A DNA stretch of 24,631 nt from a virus. Location: the IMG/VR virus record IMGVR_UViG_3300025892_003288, positions 1-24,631 of that record; one strand, 5' to 3'. A program made the translations under genes and the position numbers. The first letter of the stretch is position 1, and each line of letters begins with the position of its first letter. The notes beneath the pieces are model-generated. The model saw only the letters and a list, made by a program, of their open reading frames with translations. It was not told the DNA's origin and made no database searches. Positions 9,709 to 24,401 of this stretch are shown in pieces.

Positions 9709-12700
9709 ATGGATGATAAATCTTTATATAAAAAACTAAGAGGACTATCTACTGATAGGGCATATACAGATAGTGTCATTAAAAATAATGGCGCAGTAAT
9801 TGTAAGTGGAGGAACTCCTAGTGATAATGCACTAATTAATTCTGGTCAAGCGATAGGTCCTGTAACTACTACAAGTAGTGGTGAACGAGTTGCTCAAGTT
9901 GGACCAAATACTAAACAAACAGGATTTTTAGATAATAATGGAAATATGACTACTAATATAGAGTTATCATCTCCTGCAGTAGAGCAAAAACCATTAATTA
10001 AAGAACCATTAATTGAAGAACTTACATATGAAGCTACAAGTAATACGATTCAAGTTAATATTAAATCAACTCCTATTGGAGGAACTGTTATTGTTGATGG
10101 AAAAGATACAAAAACATTAACTAATAAACCAATGATTTTTGGTGGAAAAGAATTACTTACACCTAGAATAATTGAAGTACAAAAAGGTAAGGCAAAATCA
10201 ACTGATAAGTACAAAATATATACAGTAAAACAAAACATTATAAAAAATGTTAAACCAATACTTCCACTCGAAGTGTTTGAACCAAGACCAATAGATGAAA
10301 CATTTAATATTGAAAGAAGGGGATTTGGAACACAAGTTTATTTAGGATTTCAAAAAAGACAACCATTACCAATTCCACCAAGACCTCTTACAGTTGGTAG
10401 AGTTGGGTTCTCATATTATCAATTAAGAGTTGAAAAAAATGGAAAAGAGATAAATGTTAATAATCAAATTAATGATATAACAGGTACTATAAATAAAGCA
10501 TTTTCAGTAGATTTAACTTTTAAACTGAAAGATGAAATTGTAATAGACCCACCAAAACCAAAAGTATATTCAATAGAAATTGAATCTAATATGGTTGATG
10601 GTGATATTAAATATATTACATCTTGGGGAGAAGAAGGACTCTTAGAAGATGAAGGTTTAATAACTTTAAGTAAGAAACCTAATCTTTCCAAAGAACAATG
10701 TTATGTTGATTTCAAACCAAATAACATAAGTAATTTAACTCATACTGTAAGTTATGATATTCAAGCTCCAACAACTAAATCAATTAATACAATTAAAACT
10801 CTTGAAACAAGAGTAGTATTATCACCTGGTAATACTAAAGTAGAAGTTAATTCAGTTAAGATACCAAAAGAAGAAGTAAATAAACCTATTTTAAATGTTT
10901 CAATAGATAATTTAAAAGTTAATATATTATCTGAAGAAGATACAAAAATTGTTTATAATACACAAAATACAGATGAAGTTGTTTATACATTAGGAAAAAC
11001 ATCTAGAACATTAAAACCAAATGGAACTATCATTTTAAATAAAAATGATTTCTATAATGGTGTTGGTAACTATGTAATTTACTTACAACCAAATTCTTCT
11101 AAGGCAGGTAGTGGAGATATAAAAAGGATTAATGTAAATGTAGTAAGTAGAGAATACCTACCTGGTCCAGATATTACTCATATAAACTATCCACAAAACA
11201 TTGTTGGTGCAGATTTCAAAGGATTCGATGTACCATTTGATGTAAGTTGGCAATCTATAAACACTAATTTTGTTTACGTTTATGCAGGAAAATATTCCAA
11301 GGATACTAGGTCTAATTTCTTAGGACAGTTTGAACCAAATGGTAAAGCTAAATTCAAAGTATCGGATGTTTTAAAAGCAAGTGGAATAAACATTACAGAA
11401 AATTCAGATGTAGTACAATTCTCTTTAAACTTAGTTCCTTTTAATATTGAAGGAAACGAAAGAACAGAAGGTAAAATTGAAGTAATAAATATTACTTTTG
11501 ATAAAGGAGATTTAACATTAAGAAGAGAAATTGTAATTAATGATATTAAAGAAAGTTTTAGAAAACAATTTGATAAAAAAATATTTGAAGATGTTTCTCC
11601 TTTCCTTACACATTATTTACACTTAGGTGGTGGTAATAATAAACTAATTGCAACTTGGGATATTGATAAAAATTCATTATCTACATTTAAGTTTGATGAA
11701 GAAACAAACGAAAATAAAAAGGTAGAAGAAGTAAAGGCATTGGTTTTAAAACTATATGAACCATTACCACAAGATATAAATTTAAATCACAAAACTTGGA
11801 TATCTAAAATACAATCAATTCCTATAATTGATACAATCACACTTATAGATGGTGAAACTGCAGAATGTACACCATTGACACCAAACTTTAACTTGGATGT
11901 TGGTGATGATATAGGATATCAAATTCTTGATGATTTAATAGCAAGTGGTTCAACAACTTCAACAGATGTTGTTAATCAATTTATTTCTTCAAGTGATTTT
12001 GATTTATCTAAACTTGATATATTATATGTAACAAGTTCTACAACAGTAGTAGAAACAGATAATGGTAAAGTAAAACAAGATACAGGAGCACATGATTACA
12101 ATTGGGCAGGATTTGTAAAATATTCTTCTGCAGAAGAAAGAAGTGCAAACTTTTTATATAAAGTTCAATTGATAGAATCTTATGAAAATAAAATTCTTAG
12201 TTTAGATTCTGGTTCAGCAACAACAAGTTCTGTTGCAATTCAAAACGAAAGAGAAAAAACAGTAACTAAAATAAATGATGTTAAAAAAGGATTTGATTCA
12301 TTTGAGAAGTTCTTATATACGAGTTCATCCCTTAATGATTTAACTTATCCTGGTGCGGGTCAAACTACATTATCTGCATCAAGTGATACAACAGTAACAG
12401 ATTGGTATAGTGGTTTACAATCATCTGCAAGAACTTATGATTATGATAATAAATCAAGATTTGTAAATAACTTACCACAACATATACAAGATGATTTCAA
12501 AGGAGAAGAGTTTACATTATTCTTTGATATGGTTGGACAACACTTTGATAATATATGGGCTCATATAGAAGGTATTTCTAAATCTAAGAAAACTGAAAAC
12601 AAATATGATGTAGGTATTGTAAATGATTTAGTTTATCATATGTTAGAATCTCTTGGTTGGGATGCTGATATGGGAGTTAAATCTCAACTTCTTTGGGAAT

Positions 12701-14967
12701 ATGCATTTGGTAAACATTCAGATGGTACAGTTGTATCTAACATGAGTGGTAAAGATAGGCAATCTGAAATATGGAGAAGAATACTAAATAACTTACCATA
12801 TCTTAATAAACATAAAGGTACAAAAAGAGCACTTCATGCGGCTATGAGTATATATGGTATTCCACAATCACTTTTAACTGTGATGGAGTTTGGAGGACCA
12901 AAAGACCCAAGTAAAGAAGGAACTACTAAGTTCTCATTTGAAGATAGAACCGCGGCTATTAGTTTAGTTAGTGGAAGTTTCATTTCTATTCCTTGGAAAA
13001 AATATAATAGTAGTTTCTCTAATGAGTATCCTAACTCAGTTGAACTTACATTAAATACAGACCAAAAACAAGACCAACAAATAATATCTGCAAGTAACTG
13101 GTCAGTAGATATTATAAACACGAGTACAGGTTCACTAGGACAAATAAAACTTACAGTAGGAGCAGAATCTGCATCTACAAATCCAATGCCTATATTCAAT
13201 GATGAATATACTCAGATAGTTATAAATAGAGCTAGTGGAAGTACTTCTGATACCTTTGAAATTTTTGCAAAAGAAGCGGTTCAAGGAAGAATAAGAAATC
13301 AAGTAAGTGCTTCATTAACAACAACAACTAAAGCGTGGACAAGTGGTAGTGAATTCCATGTAGGACAAACACTAACAGGTTCGGTTGATGAAATTAGATT
13401 ATGGAGAACTGCATTAGATGAAAACAAAATTGATAATCATACTTTATTACCTGATGCAATAGATGGTAATCATATATCTGCTTCAACTACTGATTTAATA
13501 TTTAGAAATGATTTTGAATATCCAAAAAATAGAGGAACTGATGTAGAGATTAAAAACGTTGCACTAACAACTTCATATGCAACCTTTTCGACTGCATCAA
13601 ACTTTGAAAACATATCAGATTATCCATATAATTATATACCATATGATAGAGATGTAACTGCTGATGTACCTGCAAGTGGATTCAATGTTGGTAATAAAAT
13701 TAGATTTGAAACTCAAACAATAATATCAGATTTAACTTACAAAAGTAGAGCAACTAAAAAATCATTTGATAATGCACCGATTGATTCAAATAGGTTAGGA
13801 TTATTTTTCTCACCAATCAAAGAAATCAACATGGATATATTAAAATCACTTGGTGGATTCGATATAGGAAATTATATTGGTAATCCTGCCGATGATTTTT
13901 CTCCTGAGTATGGTGAATTAAAAACACTAAGAAACTATTACTTTGATAGATATTCGTTAAATATAAATGAGTATATTCAATTAGTTAGATACATAGATAA
14001 ATCATTATTTGATGTATTAGAATCATTAACACCAGCGAGAGCTAAAGTATCTAGTGGTTTATTAATAGAACCTCATATTCTTGAAAGAAGTAAGATTGAA
14101 CAAAAACCAACTGTTGCAAGTAAACACAATTATGAATCTAAAATAAATACTCAAGAAGATATTACAATTAACTTTTCTAATAAAGGAATTGAGGGTATTG
14201 TATCTTCCTCTGCAGATATTAGCTTAGCAGGTACAAAGGATAATTATGTAACAATAGTAACTGCATCTGATAATCATATTTTAAGTGGAGATAGAACTGA
14301 TTATCTAGCAATAATTACTCAATCTGATAATGTTGTAACAACAGGAGAAATTACAACAAACTCTGGTTCTAACATGGGAGGTATAAGTATTACTGTTGAT
14401 GCATCGTTTACAGGTTCAGCACAAGGTGAGTTTGATTCAACTGCATATCAACAAATAGGAATGGGACCAGAATCATTAACACAAGCTGGTTTTGGATTGT
14501 ATGGTGTGAATGGTACTGCGGTAAGAACAAGATTAGATAAAAACAATAATTTTGTAAAAGAAAGAGTTAAGGTATATTTATTAAAAGAACAGTTTACTCA
14601 AGATGTACCAGAAAATATTGATGCAAACGATTCATCATTAGGTACACAATTGGTTTCAACAACAAAACACAGATTTAAAGTAAATATTTTACCATTTACT
14701 GGTTCTGATGGAAATGAAACAAGTTCATCTGTTGCAGGTGATATTGTAGAGGTTACTGCACTAAACGGTTATTTCCCAACACATTATAGTAACGTTGGTG
14801 ATTTAACAAGTGGAATGGAGAATTCGTTCTTCAATGGTTCAAAACAAACAAGTGCTACTACTTTAGATGGCGGTTCACCTGTTCAAACGTTTACTACTAA
14901 TCCAAATACATTAAGAGTTTCGGATGCAGGTAGAGGAAGCGGAGAACCAATTTTAGAAGTAGATTAA
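9709..14967 (+). CDS. Giant tail/baseplate protein with LamG-like lectin domain (1752 aa)
   Basis: The largest gene here. Residues about 100-170 resemble a PEGA-type beta domain ('STPIGGTVIVDGKDTKTL'); several Ig-like beta segments follow to about 620. Residues 930-1060 are helical with 'LWEYAFGKH', 'EIWRRILNNLPYLNKHKGTK' and 'AMSIYGIPQSLLTVMEFGGP', a block I recall from large structural proteins of marine T4-like phages. Residues about 1080-1250 look like a concanavalin/LamG lectin-type domain, closing with the typical 'TGSVDEIRLWRTAL' motif. Near 1512-1546 there are two 19-residue repeats, then a beta-rich C-terminus. It probably forms a large peripheral baseplate component (T4 gp7/gp10 occupy this part of the cluster) and may bind glycans. 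The ATG at 9709 has only a weak ribosome-binding site. Confidence 0.75.
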   Translation: MDDKSLYKKLRGLSTDRAYTDSVIKNNGAVIVSGGTPSDNALINSGQAIGPVTTTSSGERVAQVGPNTKQTGFLDNNGNMTTNIELSSPAVEQKPLIKEPLIEELTYEATSNTIQVNIKSTPIGGTVIVDGKDTKTLTNKPMIFGGKELLTPRIIEVQKGKAKSTDKYKIYTVKQNIIKNVKPILPLEVFEPRPIDETFNIERRGFGTQVYLGFQKRQPLPIPPRPLTVGRVGFSYYQLRVEKNGKEINVNNQINDITGTINKAFSVDLTFKLKDEIVIDPPKPKVYSIEIESNMVDGDIKYITSWGEEGLLEDEGLITLSKKPNLSKEQCYVDFKPNNISNLTHTVSYDIQAPTTKSINTIKTLETRVVLSPGNTKVEVNSVKIPKEEVNKPILNVSIDNLKVNILSEEDTKIVYNTQNTDEVVYTLGKTSRTLKPNGTIILNKNDFYNGVGNYVIYLQPNSSKAGSGDIKRINVNVVSREYLPGPDITHINYPQNIVGADFKGFDVPFDVSWQSINTNFVYVYAGKYSKDTRSNFLGQFEPNGKAKFKVSDVLKASGINITENSDVVQFSLNLVPFNIEGNERTEGKIEVINITFDKGDLTLRREIVINDIKESFRKQFDKKIFEDVSPFLTHYLHLGGGNNKLIATWDIDKNSLSTFKFDEETNENKKVEEVKALVLKLYEPLPQDINLNHKTWISKIQSIPIIDTITLIDGETAECTPLTPNFNLDVGDDIGYQILDDLIASGSTTSTDVVNQFISSSDFDLSKLDILYVTSSTTVVETDNGKVKQDTGAHDYNWAGFVKYSSAEERSANFLYKVQLIESYENKILSLDSGSATTSSVAIQNEREKTVTKINDVKKGFDSFEKFLYTSSSLNDLTYPGAGQTTLSASSDTTVTDWYSGLQSSARTYDYDNKSRFVNNLPQHIQDDFKGEEFTLFFDMVGQHFDNIWAHIEGISKSKKTENKYDVGIVNDLVYHMLESLGWDADMGVKSQLLWEYAFGKHSDGTVVSNMSGKDRQSEIWRRILNNLPYLNKHKGTKRALHAAMSIYGIPQSLLTVMEFGGPKDPSKEGTTKFSFEDRTAAISLVSGSFISIPWKKYNSSFSNEYPNSVELTLNTDQKQDQQIISASNWSVDIINTSTGSLGQIKLTVGAESASTNPMPIFNDEYTQIVINRASGSTSDTFEIFAKEAVQGRIRNQVSASLTTTTKAWTSGSEFHVGQTLTGSVDEIRLWRTALDENKIDNHTLLPDAIDGNHISASTTDLIFRNDFEYPKNRGTDVEIKNVALTTSYATFSTASNFENISDYPYNYIPYDRDVTADVPASGFNVGNKIRFETQTIISDLTYKSRATKKSFDNAPIDSNRLGLFFSPIKEINMDILKSLGGFDIGNYIGNPADDFSPEYGELKTLRNYYFDRYSLNINEYIQLVRYIDKSLFDVLESLTPARAKVSSGLLIEPHILERSKIEQKPTVASKHNYESKINTQEDITINFSNKGIEGIVSSSADISLAGTKDNYVTIVTASDNHILSGDRTDYLAIITQSDNVVTTGEITTNSGSNMGGISITVDASFTGSAQGEFDSTAYQQIGMGPESLTQAGFGLYGVNGTAVRTRLDKNNNFVKERVKVYLLKEQFTQDVPENIDANDSSLGTQLVSTTKHRFKVNILPFTGSDGNETSSSVAGDIVEVTALNGYFPTHYSNVGDLTSGMENSFFNGSKQTSATTLDGGSPVQTFTTNPNTLRVSDAGRGSGEPILEVD
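14242..14346 (+). repeat. Two 19-residue protein repeats in the giant tail protein
   Basis: Residues 1512-1527 (NYVTIVTASDNHILSG) and 1531-1546 (DYLAIITQSDNVVTTG) of the 1752-aa protein align without gaps at a period of 19 residues. Hydrophobic positions alternate as in a beta-strand followed by a Ser-Asp-Asn turn. The DNA copies have diverged, so this is an old internal duplication of a beta-hairpin or beta-solenoid rung. Confidence 0.6.
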
Positions 14968-18374: not shown

Positions 18375-18950
18375 TTGAGTTTATTAATCAATCGTACTCA
18401 TAAATGGGTATATATTCACATACCAAAAACAGGAGGTTCATCCATTTCTCATATACTTAATACAGTAGAGGGAACTGAATCAATATCAACCCATGGTTCT
18501 ATACTAGAAGTAAAAGATAATATTTCTGATTATTTTAAATTCACAATAGTAAGAAATCCATATACAAGATTTCTATCAGAATATTTTCATCAAAAAAGAA
18601 ATAAGTTGACAAATCAAAATTTTGAATACTACATTAGAAAAGTAGATACAAAAGATTTACACTTAATCCCGCAAAGTTACTATGTAAACACGGAGTTGGA
18701 TAAAACAAAAGAATTAACTTACATTGGAAAGTATGAAAACTTTGTTGATGAAGTTAATTTATTATTTAATAAAATAAATATTAATAAATCTATCCCACAT
18801 CGAAATAGAAATCCAATATATGATAAGCATCCAAATTTAAAACAAGAAGATTATTATAAATCTTTTTATACTGAAACATGGATGAAAGATTGGATTAGAG
18901 AGAGATACAGAGATGATTTCAAGATTTTTAACTATGAGTTGGACATATAA
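18375..18950 (+). CDS. Sulfotransferase-like protein
   Basis: 191 aa. The PAPS-binding 5' loop is 'HIPKTGGSSI' (K18-S23) and the 3'-phosphate site is 'FKFTIVRNPYTRFLSEYFH' with R60 and S68, the two hallmarks of the Sulfotransfer_2 family; H40 may be the catalytic base. Such enzymes move sulfate from PAPS to hydroxyl groups of carbohydrates. The gene has no ATG near its start: TTG at 18375 is the only usual initiator before the conserved loop, and there is no visible ribosome-binding site. It follows the 60-aa gene in the same frame after one TAA, so expression by re-initiation, or by stop-codon read-through, is possible. Sulfotransferases occur in some marine phages; a role in modifying a cell-surface or virion glycan is inference. 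It is short for the family but both binding motifs are present. Confidence 0.8.
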   Translation: MSLLINRTHKWVYIHIPKTGGSSISHILNTVEGTESISTHGSILEVKDNISDYFKFTIVRNPYTRFLSEYFHQKRNKLTNQNFEYYIRKVDTKDLHLIPQSYYVNTELDKTKELTYIGKYENFVDEVNLLFNKININKSIPHRNRNPIYDKHPNLKQEDYYKSFYTETWMKDWIRERYRDDFKIFNYELDI

Positions 18951-19386
18951 CGGAAGAAGTATAACAGAAATATCAGATATGCCAGAAGGTACTATCGGAT
19001 TCATATACAAAATAACCAATGGTGAAACTGGTCAATATTATATTGGGAAAAAATCCCTATATTCACATAGAACATTACCACCATTAAAGGGTTATAAAAG
19101 AAAAAGAAAAGTAATCAAAGAATCTAAGTGGGTAGATTATCGTTCATCAAACCCATCAGTACAATTATGGTTTCATTCAAACGAAATGGCCTTAGAACAA
19201 GAACCAAGAGGAGAAATAAACGATACATTAGAACTAAAAATACTTAGATTCTGTAAAACTAAGAAGGCTTTAACCTATTATGAACTACAAGAACAGTTCG
19301 CACACGATGTATTAGGAGATGATTTATCCCTAAATGATAATTTATTAGGAAAGTTTTTTAGAAAAGACTTGGAAATTACGAAATAA
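18934..19386 (+). CDS. GIY-YIG nuclease-like protein
   Basis: 150 aa from the ATG at 18934. 'GFIYKIT' (G22-T28) and 'YYIGKK' (Y35-K40) match the two strands that name the GIY-YIG fold. 'ESKWVDYRSSNP', 'LRFCKTKKALTYYELQEQFA' and 'NDNLLGKFFRK' match a compact protein family I recall from many T4-like and other large phages, which usually begins Met-Ser/Asn-Trp. I chose 18934 for that reason; an in-frame ATG at 18913 with a purine-rich stretch upstream would add 7 residues. The start overlaps the sulfotransferase gene by 17 bases. No separate DNA-binding domain is visible. It may be an endonuclease of host DNA or of recombination intermediates, or a free-standing homing-type enzyme. Nuclease activity is inferred from the fold only. 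Confidence 0.72.
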   Translation: MSWTYNGRSITEISDMPEGTIGFIYKITNGETGQYYIGKKSLYSHRTLPPLKGYKRKRKVIKESKWVDYRSSNPSVQLWFHSNEMALEQEPRGEINDTLELKILRFCKTKKALTYYELQEQFAHDVLGDDLSLNDNLLGKFFRKDLEITK

Positions 19387-19418: not shown

Positions 19419-20363
19419 ATGCTCTCACATCACGAGAAACAAGAAGTTATAAATATATTAAATGATGTTTTGGGCCCTGGTACATCTATGAAAAATGATG
19501 AACAGGCTCACTATTGTCCATTTTGTCATCATCATAAGAAAAAGTTACAAATTAACTTAAAAACTCAATATTGGCATTGTTGGGTTTGTGATGCAAAGGG
19601 AAGAAAGATTCAGAGATTACTTAAAAGACTTCATGTAGATTCTCGTAAATTAAAGAAATTATATGAAATCTATGGTGATGATTACATAGTTTATAGTAAA
19701 GATACTGAAGATGAAAAGATAGAATTACGATTACCAAATGAATTTAAATCACTTTTAAAAGAACCAAAGGGTAAAATTAACCCAATATATAAAAAATCAA
19801 TTCAATATGCTAAAGATAGGAAAATCAGTAATGAAGATATTATCAAGTATAACATTGGATATTGTGATGGTGGTATGTACTCTGGTAGGATTATTATTCC
19901 TTCTTATGATTCTGATAATAGACTTAACTATTTTATCGCCAGGTCGGTCTTTATCGATGAAAAGTTTAAATATAAAAATCCACCGGTTTCTAAAAACGTT
20001 ATCATGTTCGAAAACCAAATAAATTGGAATGAACCTATAACATTAGTAGAAGGTGTATTTGATGCAATTGCAGTAAAACGAAATGCAATTCCTATACTCG
20101 GTAAGTTCGTACCTAGAAAATTAAATGATGCTATATTTAGTAATGGAGTAAAAAATCTTAACATCTTATTAGATGAAGATGCTCAAAACCAAGCGTTACA
20201 TTACACTATGCAATATACCAACCAAGGTATTCAAACAAAAAACATTAAACCCACAGACAAAGATGCATCTGATATGGGATTCACAGAAGTAAATAATAAA
20301 TTAAAAGAATCTAAGAAAACAGGATTCGGTGATGTTATATCACAAAAGTTAAAAGGTTTATGA
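19419..20363 (+). CDS. DNA primase (zinc finger plus Toprim)
   Basis: 314 aa. Residues 31-57 form a zinc ribbon, 'HYCPFCHHHKKK' and 'YWHCWVCDAKG', with C33, C36, C54 and C57 as ligands. The Toprim catalytic domain has E211 in 'LVEGVFDAIAVK' and the acidic D252-E253-D254 in 'LLDEDAQ', with 'DKDASDMG' closing the fold. This is the DnaG arrangement and corresponds in role to T4 gp61, which makes RNA primers for lagging-strand synthesis with the phage helicase. It is shorter than bacterial DnaG and lacks an obvious C-terminal helicase-binding domain, as usual for phages. The gene is first in an operon with the fused Mre11-Rad50 gene, overlapping it by ATGA (20360-20363), and has its own promoter-like site. 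Confidence 0.9.
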   Translation: MLSHHEKQEVINILNDVLGPGTSMKNDEQAHYCPFCHHHKKKLQINLKTQYWHCWVCDAKGRKIQRLLKRLHVDSRKLKKLYEIYGDDYIVYSKDTEDEKIELRLPNEFKSLLKEPKGKINPIYKKSIQYAKDRKISNEDIIKYNIGYCDGGMYSGRIIIPSYDSDNRLNYFIARSVFIDEKFKYKNPPVSKNVIMFENQINWNEPITLVEGVFDAIAVKRNAIPILGKFVPRKLNDAIFSNGVKNLNILLDEDAQNQALHYTMQYTNQGIQTKNIKPTDKDASDMGFTEVNNKLKESKKTGFGDVISQKLKGL

Positions 20364-23300
20364 TAATAAATAAAGTTTACCATTTGGCAGATTTACATAT
20401 TAGAAATCTCCAAAGGCACAAAGAATACAAATTCGTATTCAAAAAATTCTTAAAACAAGTTAAACAAGACAATATAGAGGATTCTCTAATCTATATTGCA
20501 GGTGATATTGCTCACGCAAAAACTGAGATGTCACCAGAACTAGTACATGAAATAAGTTGGTTTCTTACCGAATGTGCTAAGTTAAGAGAAACTGTATTAA
20601 TCACAGGTAACCATGATTGTAATTTAAATAATTCACACAGACTCGATGTACTCACACCTATTATCCAAAATCTTGGAAACGATAGAATTCATTATCTTCG
20701 TGATACTGGTGTTTACAATATCCATAATCTTACTTTCGTTGTCTATTCTATATTGGATAACAAAGAAAATTGGCCTAAAGGAAATACCATTGATGGAGAA
20801 AATACAATCTGTCTTTTTCATGGACCGGTAAACAAAGCTCAAACAGATATCGGCTATACCGTTTCCTCTAACTCATTTCAAGTAGATATGTTTGATGGAT
20901 TCGATATGGCCATGTTGGGTGATATCCATAAAAGACAAACATTTGGACCTGGTTATGAACACATTGCATATGCTGGTTCTATGGTTCAACAGAATCATGG
21001 TGAGTTATTGGAAAACCATGGTTATCTACTTTGGGATATCCCTACAAGAACTTTTACAGAACATCATATCCACAATGATTATGGATTCTTAACAGTTGAT
21101 GTAGTTGATGGTAAAATACCTCAATGGGTGTATGATGAAGTTGGTACTAAACTTCCAAAGTATCCAAGATTAAGATTGAGATTCACAAGAACAGAAGCTT
21201 CTGATATGAAGAGAAAAATAACTGAACTAAAGAAGTTATTCAAAGTTGCTGAAGTTACTGTAACAAGAACTGATACAATCGGACAACTAAAAACAAATCA
21301 AAAGGTAAACAAAAACATTGTTGGTAATGTTAAAGATGAAACCTTCCAAAATCAACTCATCAGAGATTACTTAGAAAGACAGTATTTGTTAGAAGATGAA
21401 GAGTTGGATAAGATTGCAGAAATCAACTCAGAACTAAATTCACATATAGATGATTCGGATTCAATGGGTAACATTCTATGGACACCAAAACAATTTGAAT
21501 TCTCTAATATGTTTTCGTATGGTGAAGGTAATTTAATCCGATTTGATAAAGCACAAGGTATCATGGGTATCTTTGCTCCTAACGCAAGTGGTAAATCTTC
21601 TATGTGGGATGCACTATCGTTTTGTATCTATGATAAAACTTCTCGTACAAATATTTCTAAAAACGTTTTAAACAATCGTAAATCAACTTTCTATTGTAAG
21701 TTTAACTTTGAGATAGATGGAATAGATTACTTCATTGAGAGAAAAGCAAAGTATGTTAGGAAAGGTACATCTGTTAAGGTTGATGTAAACTTTTGGAGTG
21801 ATGACAATGGAGTTATAGAATCACTTAATGGAGAACAACGAAAAGATACTAATAAAGAAATAGAAAAGTACTTAGGTAAGTTTGAAGATTTCGTCCTTAC
21901 TGCTCTTTCCCTACAAGGAAACAATGCACTGTTTATAGATAAATCACAAAGTGAAAGAAAAGAAATACTTTCACAATTCATAGGTGTAAACATCTTTGAT
22001 AAACTATATCAGAAAGCATCTGATGAGAACCGAGATAATGCAACACTTATCAGAAAATTCAAGTCGGATGATTTTACGACAAAATTAGCGGAAATCGACA
22101 CAGATTTAAAGTCAAACAAAAACGAGTATAAGTTATTAGAGATAAACCAAAAATCTTTAAAGGACGAAGAAGATGTGTTGAACAAAAGGATTATATCCCT
22201 TAATGGAAAAATTGTAAATCTAAATGCTGATAGTGGAGTATCGATAGAAGAGTTAGAAAAAAGATTTAACATCCTCGAATCCAAACGAGATACAATTCAA
22301 ACAAATAAAAAATCTACACAAGATAGAATTACACATCGAGAAGAACTACAACTTACATTAGAAGAAATATTAGATAAGTTTGATGAAGAAGATTTAGAAG
22401 AAGGAATTACAAAATTAAAAACATTAAAGAAGAATTTAAGTAATATTGACACAGAAATAGAAAAAGTAAATATAAAATTAGAATCTTTATACGAAAGAAA
22501 AGAACATTTAGATTCTCACAAATATAATGAAGATTGTAATATTTGTATGGAAAATTCTAAATCTATTTTAGAAACAAAAGTAGAAGTAGATTCTAAAATT
22601 CAAGATGGTGAAAGTTACTTACAAGATTTTGAGAAACAAAAATTAGATTTAAATATTGAAATAGATTCTTTAAAAGGTTATGAAAAAGAGTGGAGTAATT
22701 TTCAAGAGGCACAAGAAAAAGAAGATAAGATTGATAGAGAGATTGGTGGACTTATAAACAAGTTATCAACAATTGAAACTGAAGAATTACGAAATTCACA
22801 ACAAATTACTCAACAAGATACTCTTATAAAAGAATATTACAAGAATGAAAAGCAAATTAATAAGAATAGAGAAATCAGAGATGAGATTAGTGGAGTAAGA
22901 GAAAAACTTAAAATTGTTAAGGATGAACTCAAAGGAGTTAATACAGATATCCTTAAATTAAATGGTAAAGTATCGGCATTACAAAACCAAAAAGAAACTA
23001 TTGAAGATAGAATCAATGAGGTTAAAGAACTAGAATCTCAGAGTAGATTATTTGATTTCTACTTAAATGCTCTTTCTAAAGATGGTGTATCTTATGAATT
23101 GATTGAAAAAGCATTACCAATGATTGAGGGTGAGGTAAATAATATTTTAGGTCAAATAGTAGACTTCGGAATGCAGTTAGAGATTGATGGTAAGAACATT
23201 AATGCATATCTTGTATATGGAGACCAAAGATGGAGTTTAGAAATGTGTAGTGGTATGGAAAGATTTATTAGTGGGTTAGCAATTAGAGTTGCTTTAATCA

Positions 23301-23518
23301 ATGTATGTAACCTACCAAGACCTAATTTCCTTGTGATAGATGAAGGGTTTGGAACATTAGATAGTGAGAACTTACAATCTTTATTTATGTTGTTTACATA
23401 TCTTAAAACTCAGTTTGATTTCGTTATGGTAATCTCACATATTGATTCAATGAGAGATGTTGTAGATGGTTTGATTGAAATTAAAAAAGAAAAAGGATTT
23501 TCCCAAGTTAAATTTTAA
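20360..23518 (+). CDS. Fused Mre11-Rad50 (gp47-gp46 / SbcD-SbcC) recombination nuclease
   Basis: 1052 aa in one uninterrupted frame. Residues 1-340 are a complete Mre11/SbcD phosphodiesterase: D11-x-H13, 'AGDIAH', G83-N-H-D86, 'LFHG' and G187-D-I-H190 bind two Mn ions. After a short linker, residues about 370-1052 are a Rad50/SbcC ATPase: Walker A G403-S414 with K412, a long coiled coil (about 560-930) with a CxxC zinc hook at C726-N-I-C729, ABC signature 'MCSGMER' (962-968), Walker B D994-E995 and D-loop L1000-D1001. In T4 these are separate proteins, gp47 (339 aa) and gp46 (560 aa), which resect DNA ends for recombination-dependent replication and degrade host DNA. All motifs are intact, so the fusion should be active. 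M369 could start a separate Rad50 part, but has no ribosome-binding site. It is coupled to primase (ATGA) and followed by rmlB after one base. Confidence 0.95.
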   Translation: MIINKVYHLADLHIRNLQRHKEYKFVFKKFLKQVKQDNIEDSLIYIAGDIAHAKTEMSPELVHEISWFLTECAKLRETVLITGNHDCNLNNSHRLDVLTPIIQNLGNDRIHYLRDTGVYNIHNLTFVVYSILDNKENWPKGNTIDGENTICLFHGPVNKAQTDIGYTVSSNSFQVDMFDGFDMAMLGDIHKRQTFGPGYEHIAYAGSMVQQNHGELLENHGYLLWDIPTRTFTEHHIHNDYGFLTVDVVDGKIPQWVYDEVGTKLPKYPRLRLRFTRTEASDMKRKITELKKLFKVAEVTVTRTDTIGQLKTNQKVNKNIVGNVKDETFQNQLIRDYLERQYLLEDEELDKIAEINSELNSHIDDSDSMGNILWTPKQFEFSNMFSYGEGNLIRFDKAQGIMGIFAPNASGKSSMWDALSFCIYDKTSRTNISKNVLNNRKSTFYCKFNFEIDGIDYFIERKAKYVRKGTSVKVDVNFWSDDNGVIESLNGEQRKDTNKEIEKYLGKFEDFVLTALSLQGNNALFIDKSQSERKEILSQFIGVNIFDKLYQKASDENRDNATLIRKFKSDDFTTKLAEIDTDLKSNKNEYKLLEINQKSLKDEEDVLNKRIISLNGKIVNLNADSGVSIEELEKRFNILESKRDTIQTNKKSTQDRITHREELQLTLEEILDKFDEEDLEEGITKLKTLKKNLSNIDTEIEKVNIKLESLYERKEHLDSHKYNEDCNICMENSKSILETKVEVDSKIQDGESYLQDFEKQKLDLNIEIDSLKGYEKEWSNFQEAQEKEDKIDREIGGLINKLSTIETEELRNSQQITQQDTLIKEYYKNEKQINKNREIRDEISGVREKLKIVKDELKGVNTDILKLNGKVSALQNQKETIEDRINEVKELESQSRLFDFYLNALSKDGVSYELIEKALPMIEGEVNNILGQIVDFGMQLEIDGKNINAYLVYGDQRWSLEMCSGMERFISGLAIRVALINVCNLPRPNFLVIDEGFGTLDSENLQSLFMLFTYLKTQFDFVMVISHIDSMRDVVDGLIEIKKEKGFSQVKF

Positions 23519-23519
23519 T

Positions 23520-24401
23520 ATGAAAGTAGTAGTAACTGGTGGTTTAGGGTTTATTGGTTCATCATTCGTGGATTTATGTGTTAGTAAAGGCATTGAAGTT
23601 TTAGTTATTGATAAAATGACATACGCATCAAATGAGGATTGGTTACCAATGGATACTGAATTGTTAGTAAGTGATATATGTGATGTAACTAAAGAAGATT
23701 TAGGTGAATATGATTATCTTGTAAACTTTGCAGCAGAATCTCATGTAGATAGAAGTATCAAAGATGGATTACCATTTGTAAACTCAAACATACAAGGAAC
23801 TTATAATCTTTTAGAACTTGCAAGAAAAAATCCTAAATTAAAAAAGTTTGTACAAATCAGTACCGATGAAGTTTATGGTGATTTAGAATTTCTATTTGTT
23901 GATGAAGTAGATGAAACTCATGAATTAAAACCATCATCTTATTATTCATCAACCAAAGCATCAGCAGATTTAATTGTACAAAGTTGTGGACACACCTATG
24001 GTCTACCTTATCTTATAACAAGAACTTGTAATAACTTTGGTATCAGACAACATAGTGAAAAATTTATTCCTACAATTATTGATTGTATAAAAAATAAAAA
24101 AGAAATACCAATGTATGGAGATGGAAAACAAGTTAGAGAATGGATTTGGGTAGAAGATAATGTTAGACAAGTATTTAGGTATATGTTAGATTCAGATGAA
24201 GGAATCCGAAATATCGGTTCTAAGGAACGATTAACTAATAAACATATAATCCAAAAAGTAGGAGAAATTCTTAAGACAGAACCTCTTATAACATCAGTAG
24301 AAGATAGATTAGGACATGATAGAAGGTATGGATTAAAAACAAATTATAAAGAAACACCAATAACTAAAACATTATTTGAATATGTTAGTGAAATTAAATG
24401 A
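23520..24401 (+). CDS. rmlB: dTDP-glucose 4,6-dehydratase
   Basis: 293 aa, an extended short-chain dehydrogenase. The NAD-binding 'TGGLGFIG' (G7, G10, G13) opens the protein, followed by 'AAESHVDRSI', the dehydratase-specific T115-D116-E117 in 'ISTDEVYGD', Y142-x3-K146 in 'YYSSTKAS', 'TRTCNNFGIRQHSEKFIPT' and 'REWIWVEDNVR'. The Asp-Glu pair distinguishes RmlB from simple epimerases. It makes dTDP-4-keto-6-deoxyglucose from dTDP-glucose, the second step of dTDP-rhamnose synthesis. It is shorter than the usual 330-360 residues, mainly through short loops. I chose the ATG at 23520, one base after the previous stop, because an ATG at 23475 would add a 15-residue Lys-rich extension before the strand that starts the Rossmann fold. 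Confidence 0.9.
   Translation: MKVVVTGGLGFIGSSFVDLCVSKGIEVLVIDKMTYASNEDWLPMDTELLVSDICDVTKEDLGEYDYLVNFAAESHVDRSIKDGLPFVNSNIQGTYNLLELARKNPKLKKFVQISTDEVYGDLEFLFVDEVDETHELKPSSYYSSTKASADLIVQSCGHTYGLPYLITRTCNNFGIRQHSEKFIPTIIDCIKNKKEIPMYGDGKQVREWIWVEDNVRQVFRYMLDSDEGIRNIGSKERLTNKHIIQKVGEILKTEPLITSVEDRLGHDRRYGLKTNYKETPITKTLFEYVSEIK

Follow-up and report, generated by a model that had tools for sequence, protein, structure and literature searches.

The window, a stretch of 24,631 nucleotides of the IMG/VR virus record IMGVR_UViG_3300025892_003288, encodes homologues of Mre11 and Rad50 (SbcD and SbcC) in one polypeptide. As judged from its sequence, the gene is a genuine Mre11-Rad50 fusion that is conserved among relatives, and its product very probably acts as a single-chain phage SbcCD, a nuclease for the processing of DNA ends of the type known from Mimivirus R555. 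The order of nuclease followed by ATPase in a chain of 1052 residues, proposed earlier in a sequence-only reading, was borne out. The frame is uninterrupted (Table 1), and both Metallophos (residues 5-191, 2e-7) and AAA_23 (residues 382-628, 1.9e-9) match above the curated Pfam cut-offs; matches to SbcC_Walker_B at the C-terminus and to SMC_N fall below theirs. The protein also matches PHROG 77 (SbcC) at 1.2e-56, and comparison with PDB sequences returned archaeal Rad50 and E. coli SbcC, with both lobes covered. The fixed 1:1 ratio of nuclease to ATPase that the same reading foresaw follows by construction from the fusion.

Table 1. Features of the fusion gene and the adjoining primase (positions in the window; residues of the fusion protein)
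Feature	Position	Strand	Basis and remarks
Mre11/Rad50 (SbcD/SbcC) fusion gene	20360-23518	+	ATG start, 1052 aa, no internal stop
Mre11-like phosphoesterase core, residues 1-240	20360-21079	+	Metallophos, conservation, model; D11, H13, D49, H52, N84, H85, H154, D188, H190
Mre11 capping-domain position, residues 241-303	21080-21268	+	Secondary structure of model; assigned by position in Mre11
Helix-loop-helix, residues 327-360 (helices 327-341, 346-360)	21338-21439	+	Model; expected Rad50-binding element
Interdomain linker, residues 361-373	21440-21478	+	Without secondary structure in model
Rad50 N-terminal lobe, residues 374-543	21479-21988	+	AAA_23; Walker A (APNASGKS), Q-loop Q519
Coiled coil, residues 544-905, broken by zinc hook	21989-23074	+	Long helices in model
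CNIC zinc hook (CxxC), residues 726-729	22535-22546	+	Conservation
Rad50 C-terminal lobe, residues 906-1052	23075-23515	+	SGME, Walker B/D-loop IDEGFGTLD, H1027
DnaG-like primase (Zn ribbon, Toprim)	19419-20363	+	Directly upstream of fusion; phrog_47 DNA primase, 1.8e-45

The nuclease half has all phosphoesterase motifs and metal ligands of Mre11/SbcD, two of them in substituted form (D11-x-H13, GD49xxH52, GNH85D, H154 and GD188IH190). The Rad50/SbcC set is complete and comprises a Walker A motif with GKS at 411-413, the Q-loop (Q519), a coiled coil with the hook C726xxC729, a signature that reads SGME (964-967) rather than SGGE, a Walker B motif within IDEGFGTLD, and H1027. When the window protein was aligned with 129 relatives, the metal ligands and the Walker, signature and hook residues proved invariant in the 130 rows, barring gaps in partial rows, except that H13 is replaced by Q in seven and I993 by V in seven. 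The zinc hook, noted before as retained, is present in 127/127 rows that reach its position. The earlier statement that every catalytic motif is present was nearly right, the departure being two changed positions in the Mre11 metal site, GDxxD to GDxxH and GHxH to GDxH; H52 and D188 are invariant in all 130 rows.

The two changes could mean that the nuclease half has lost or altered its activity and that the chief role of the protein is to tether DNA in the manner of SMC proteins, or lies in counter-defence. The ATPase half does match the profile of Lamassu LmuB (5.2e-30); this match fits either reading, because LmuB is itself an SbcC-like ATPase. All other ligands, however, the catalytic H85 among them, vary little or not at all, and the nuclease half has a very low dN/dS. 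Moreover, the same changes occur singly in phage SbcD proteins encoded as separate genes, GDxxH in SPO1 and 000TH009 and GDxH in the T5-like PSTCR5. We therefore regard loss or change of activity as very improbable and prefer an end-processing nuclease.

The window is a metagenomic contig, and an error of sequencing or assembly might have removed a stop codon or frameshift and so joined two separate genes; positions 21350-21500 had been singled out as the place to look. This region, however, is open in all 129 distinct IMG/VR relatives, with near-constant length, and the coding sequence also crosses the junction in one frame in the genome deposited for Microcystis phage Mel-JY01 as well as in others. 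The first 80 IMG/VR loci fetched were all in one frame across the junction, the incomplete ones being cut by the contig end. A missed stop or frameshift is ruled out by these independent relatives, and the chance that an artefact created the fusion is negligible. The linker, thought to span perhaps 30 residues, is shorter in the structure model, at approximately 13 residues, because residues 327-360 are predicted to fold as a helix-loop-helix. Of the 130 rows, 126 have 19 residues in segment 356-374 and the other four have 18. In the pairs examined, dN/dS in the helix-loop-helix and linker is well below 1, and by this sequence measure the junction region is under purifying selection.

Constancy of linker length speaks for a functional tether and against a single translation product that works as two, the Rad50 half being freed by an internal start or a protease. 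An ATG at M384 is found in 130/130 rows and could provide such a start, but it sits past the first Rad50 strand (374-381 in the model) and in most rows is not preceded by a strong Shine-Dalgarno sequence (a four-base match in 10/130). Within the linker, no conserved start codon was found in the 130 aligned rows, and an internal start for a separate Rad50 was rejected on this ground. The chain may be split by proteolysis after translation. Taken as a whole, two products are very improbable, and a single working chain is the preferred reading.

The structure model was built from 32 sequences of the window's own family and is of moderate quality (mean pLDDT 76.8, pTM 0.46). In Mre11, a helix-loop-helix grips Rad50, and the predicted helices 327-341 and 346-360 are expected to be this element, given their position and known Mre11-Rad50 structures. 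Foldseek matched the model to Mre11-Rad50 complexes, SbcCD and Mre11 dimers. The best viral fold matches (BFVD) were giant-virus DNA-repair proteins of comparable length, from Tupanvirus (25% identity), Harvfovirus (20%) and Catovirus (20%). The coiled coil is the fastest-evolving part of the protein.

From these elements, a working model can be proposed. Two chains would dimerise through their nuclease domains, ATP-bound heads and zinc hook, such that the usual M2R2 complex is made from two polypeptides rather than four. The helix-loop-helix would hold each nuclease domain in cis on the Rad50 coil, with the linker of some 13 residues as tether. If T4 gp46/47 and SbcCD are a guide, ATP-driven closure and opening of the heads would gate access to the nuclease, double-strand ends would be resected, and ends would be tethered through the zinc hook. 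The resulting 3´ ends may then pass to RecA/UvsX of the phage itself, in support of recombination-dependent replication and of repair. RecA was present in 10/10 related records tested.

The primase stop codon overlaps the start of the fusion (ATGA, 20360-20363), which suggests that the two are translationally coupled. Sub-threshold Pfam matches of the primase are to CHC2, DnaG_N and Toprim. A primase homologue lies directly upstream in 155 of 166 related loci, in which some contigs are counted twice, with a median overlap of 4 bases. Upstream in 36 related loci is an ORF family, the tested member of which matches Phage_endo_I of the T7 gp3 type (PF05367, 3.1e-58). Just upstream of the primase in the window is a SegE-like GIY-YIG endonuclease (18913-19386; PF19835, 7.3e-23), and about 105 related loci likewise have ORFs of this cluster on the upstream side. 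The primase-fusion block is flanked by a sulfotransferase-like ORF (18375-18950; phrog_3347) and an NAD-dependent sugar epimerase (23475-24401; PF01370, 3.1e-52). Elsewhere in the window, a 1752-aa ORF without PHROG match (9709-14967) lies amid baseplate-wedge genes.

How widespread the fusion is among related phages had been left open. A scan with two conserved patterns, followed by confirmation, located relatives on at least 588 IMG/VR stretches, and fusion is the rule: every relative of at least 36% identity that reaches the junction and was examined is fused there. In 13 of 14 large related records, mostly of unestablished completeness, the fusion is the only AAA_23 (Rad50-type) protein and a second, unfused copy is absent; the exception is the 735-kb phage LR756501 with two further AAA_23 proteins (three in total). 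Mel-JY01, deposited as a complete genome, has a relative of 37.6% identity annotated as "AAA domain containing protein". Some database annotations of such genes name one half only. The fusions of Rhizobium phage RHph_TM30 (L085, 3851-6730) and XacN1 (L086, 3410-6709) are annotated as single subunits, namely "SbcD-like subunit" and "recombination endonuclease subunit".

The one split gene is that of the 484-kb phage LR756508.1 (L083, 3950-8175), where an ORF of 305 aa breaks the nuclease half of the fusion homologue directly past the metal-site motif GDIH. The inserted ORF has motifs resembling zinc fingers and matches a TnsA-like endonuclease (PF08722, 5.8e-6). The interruption resembles a mobile intron or the insertion of a homing endonuclease; no known intron was detected in the split gene with Rfam. 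A scan of genome contigs for a cellular source of the fusion returned three contigs only, which are short, come from MAGs and may be of phage origin, and plasmids gave partial matches only. Fused homologues on two short MAG-binned contigs (L168, Nitrosopelagicus; L169, an unnamed bacterium) are probably on phage contigs in bins and are therefore without value as host evidence.

The sequence-only reading derived the fusion from loss of a stop codon in a T4-like 47-46 gene pair, an origin that the present data do not support for the window family. Trees were made for each half separately (25 rows, the Mre11 row of LR756508 being joined from two gene parts). They have several long branches and no stable placement of the Rhizobium fusion. 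In both, the window family and the 735-kb phage form one group (Rad50 95/92, Mre11 98/98) apart from T4, P-SSM2, SPO1, a T5-like phage and E. coli. Sub-groups of the window family are largely concordant between the two trees, as expected from one fusion inherited as a unit. Furthermore, genes 47 and 46 are separated by two ORFs (46.1 and 46.2) in T4 and by one in P-SSM2, and the Walker-B/D-loop and signature of the window family resemble SbcC, not gp46. XacN1 joins T4/P-SSM2 on both halves (Mre11 98/95, Rad50 93/81) and is probably a second, independent fusion of T4 type. Stop loss fits XacN1 better than the window protein.

The main value of these observations lies in the prevalence of the fusion, its near-universal status as sole copy, a linker of almost constant length and the probably independent fusion in XacN1. 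A broader interpretation, which we put forward tentatively and hold to be somewhat less likely than its opposite, is that a whole aquatic lineage of large phages depends solely on a single-chain form of Mre11-Rad50, with a tether of 13 residues that hardly varies in length and with an altered metal site (H52, D188). With such a tether, each nuclease would be confined to the Rad50 of its own chain and subunits could no longer be exchanged. Phages would have arrived at the design at least twice, the T4-type XacN1 being the other case. An M2R2 complex of two polypeptides would suit structural and mechanistic study of Rad50 control over Mre11.

The fusion is not new in kind. Mre11 and Rad50 homologues are indeed separate genes in T4, as the sequence-only reading stated, but the rarity that it implied for fusions must be qualified: R555 of Mimivirus was described as a Mre11/Rad50 fusion in 2011, together with twelve further fusions from bacteria, plasmids, eukaryotes and Bacillus phage 0305phi8-36 (Yoshida, Claverie and Ogata, 2011; PMC3175470). 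Our limited search of the open literature found no later papers on phage Mre11/Rad50 fusions. Aquatic R555 homologues were reported to be abundant, enriched in viral fractions and located on scaffolds shared with phage primases and T7-type endonuclease I, and some were suggested to belong to phages (PMC3175470). The window family has the same primase and T7-type endonuclease neighbours. What could then be inferred from short reads only is confirmed in assembled phage contigs: among the R555-like genes that abound in aquatic samples is a phage family whose members are, as a rule, fused.

R555 shares with the window fusion the nuclease-then-ATPase order and a short linker, estimated at 9-12 residues in 2011, and by its published description also the GDxxH change and the D-for-H206 change that gives GDxH, both common to the window family (PMC3175470). 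It is a protein of 1351 aa from a giant virus, whereas the window fusion has 1052 aa and is from a large, aquatic tailed phage. The window family may share descent with R555, an indirect grouping that draws on fold matches, the top ones being repair proteins of Tupanvirus, Harvfovirus, Catovirus and Klosneuvirus with 20-25% identity, and on the gene neighbourhood. Bacillus phage 0305phi8-36 likewise is a tailed phage with a fusion, but this is described as being without one P-loop NTPase segment and the cap/helix-loop-helix, both of which the window protein has (PMC3175470). ORF305 of XacN1 combines Mre11 and Rad50 in one chain of 1099 aa, as in the window, but groups with T4/P-SSM2 on both halves, with the window family outside. 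The gp47/gp46 pairs of T4 and P-SSM2 are phage SbcD/SbcC homologues like the window halves; they are encoded by separate genes with a gp46-type signature and D-loop, whereas the window family is fused and stands apart in both trees. SPO1 (21.3/21.9) and Bacillus phage 000TH009 have GDxxH and a primase near the SbcC gene (21.95 in SPO1). Their SbcD and SbcC are separate with the primase downstream, in contrast to the fused gene with the primase upstream in the window, but their gene context is closer to that of the window than T4's.
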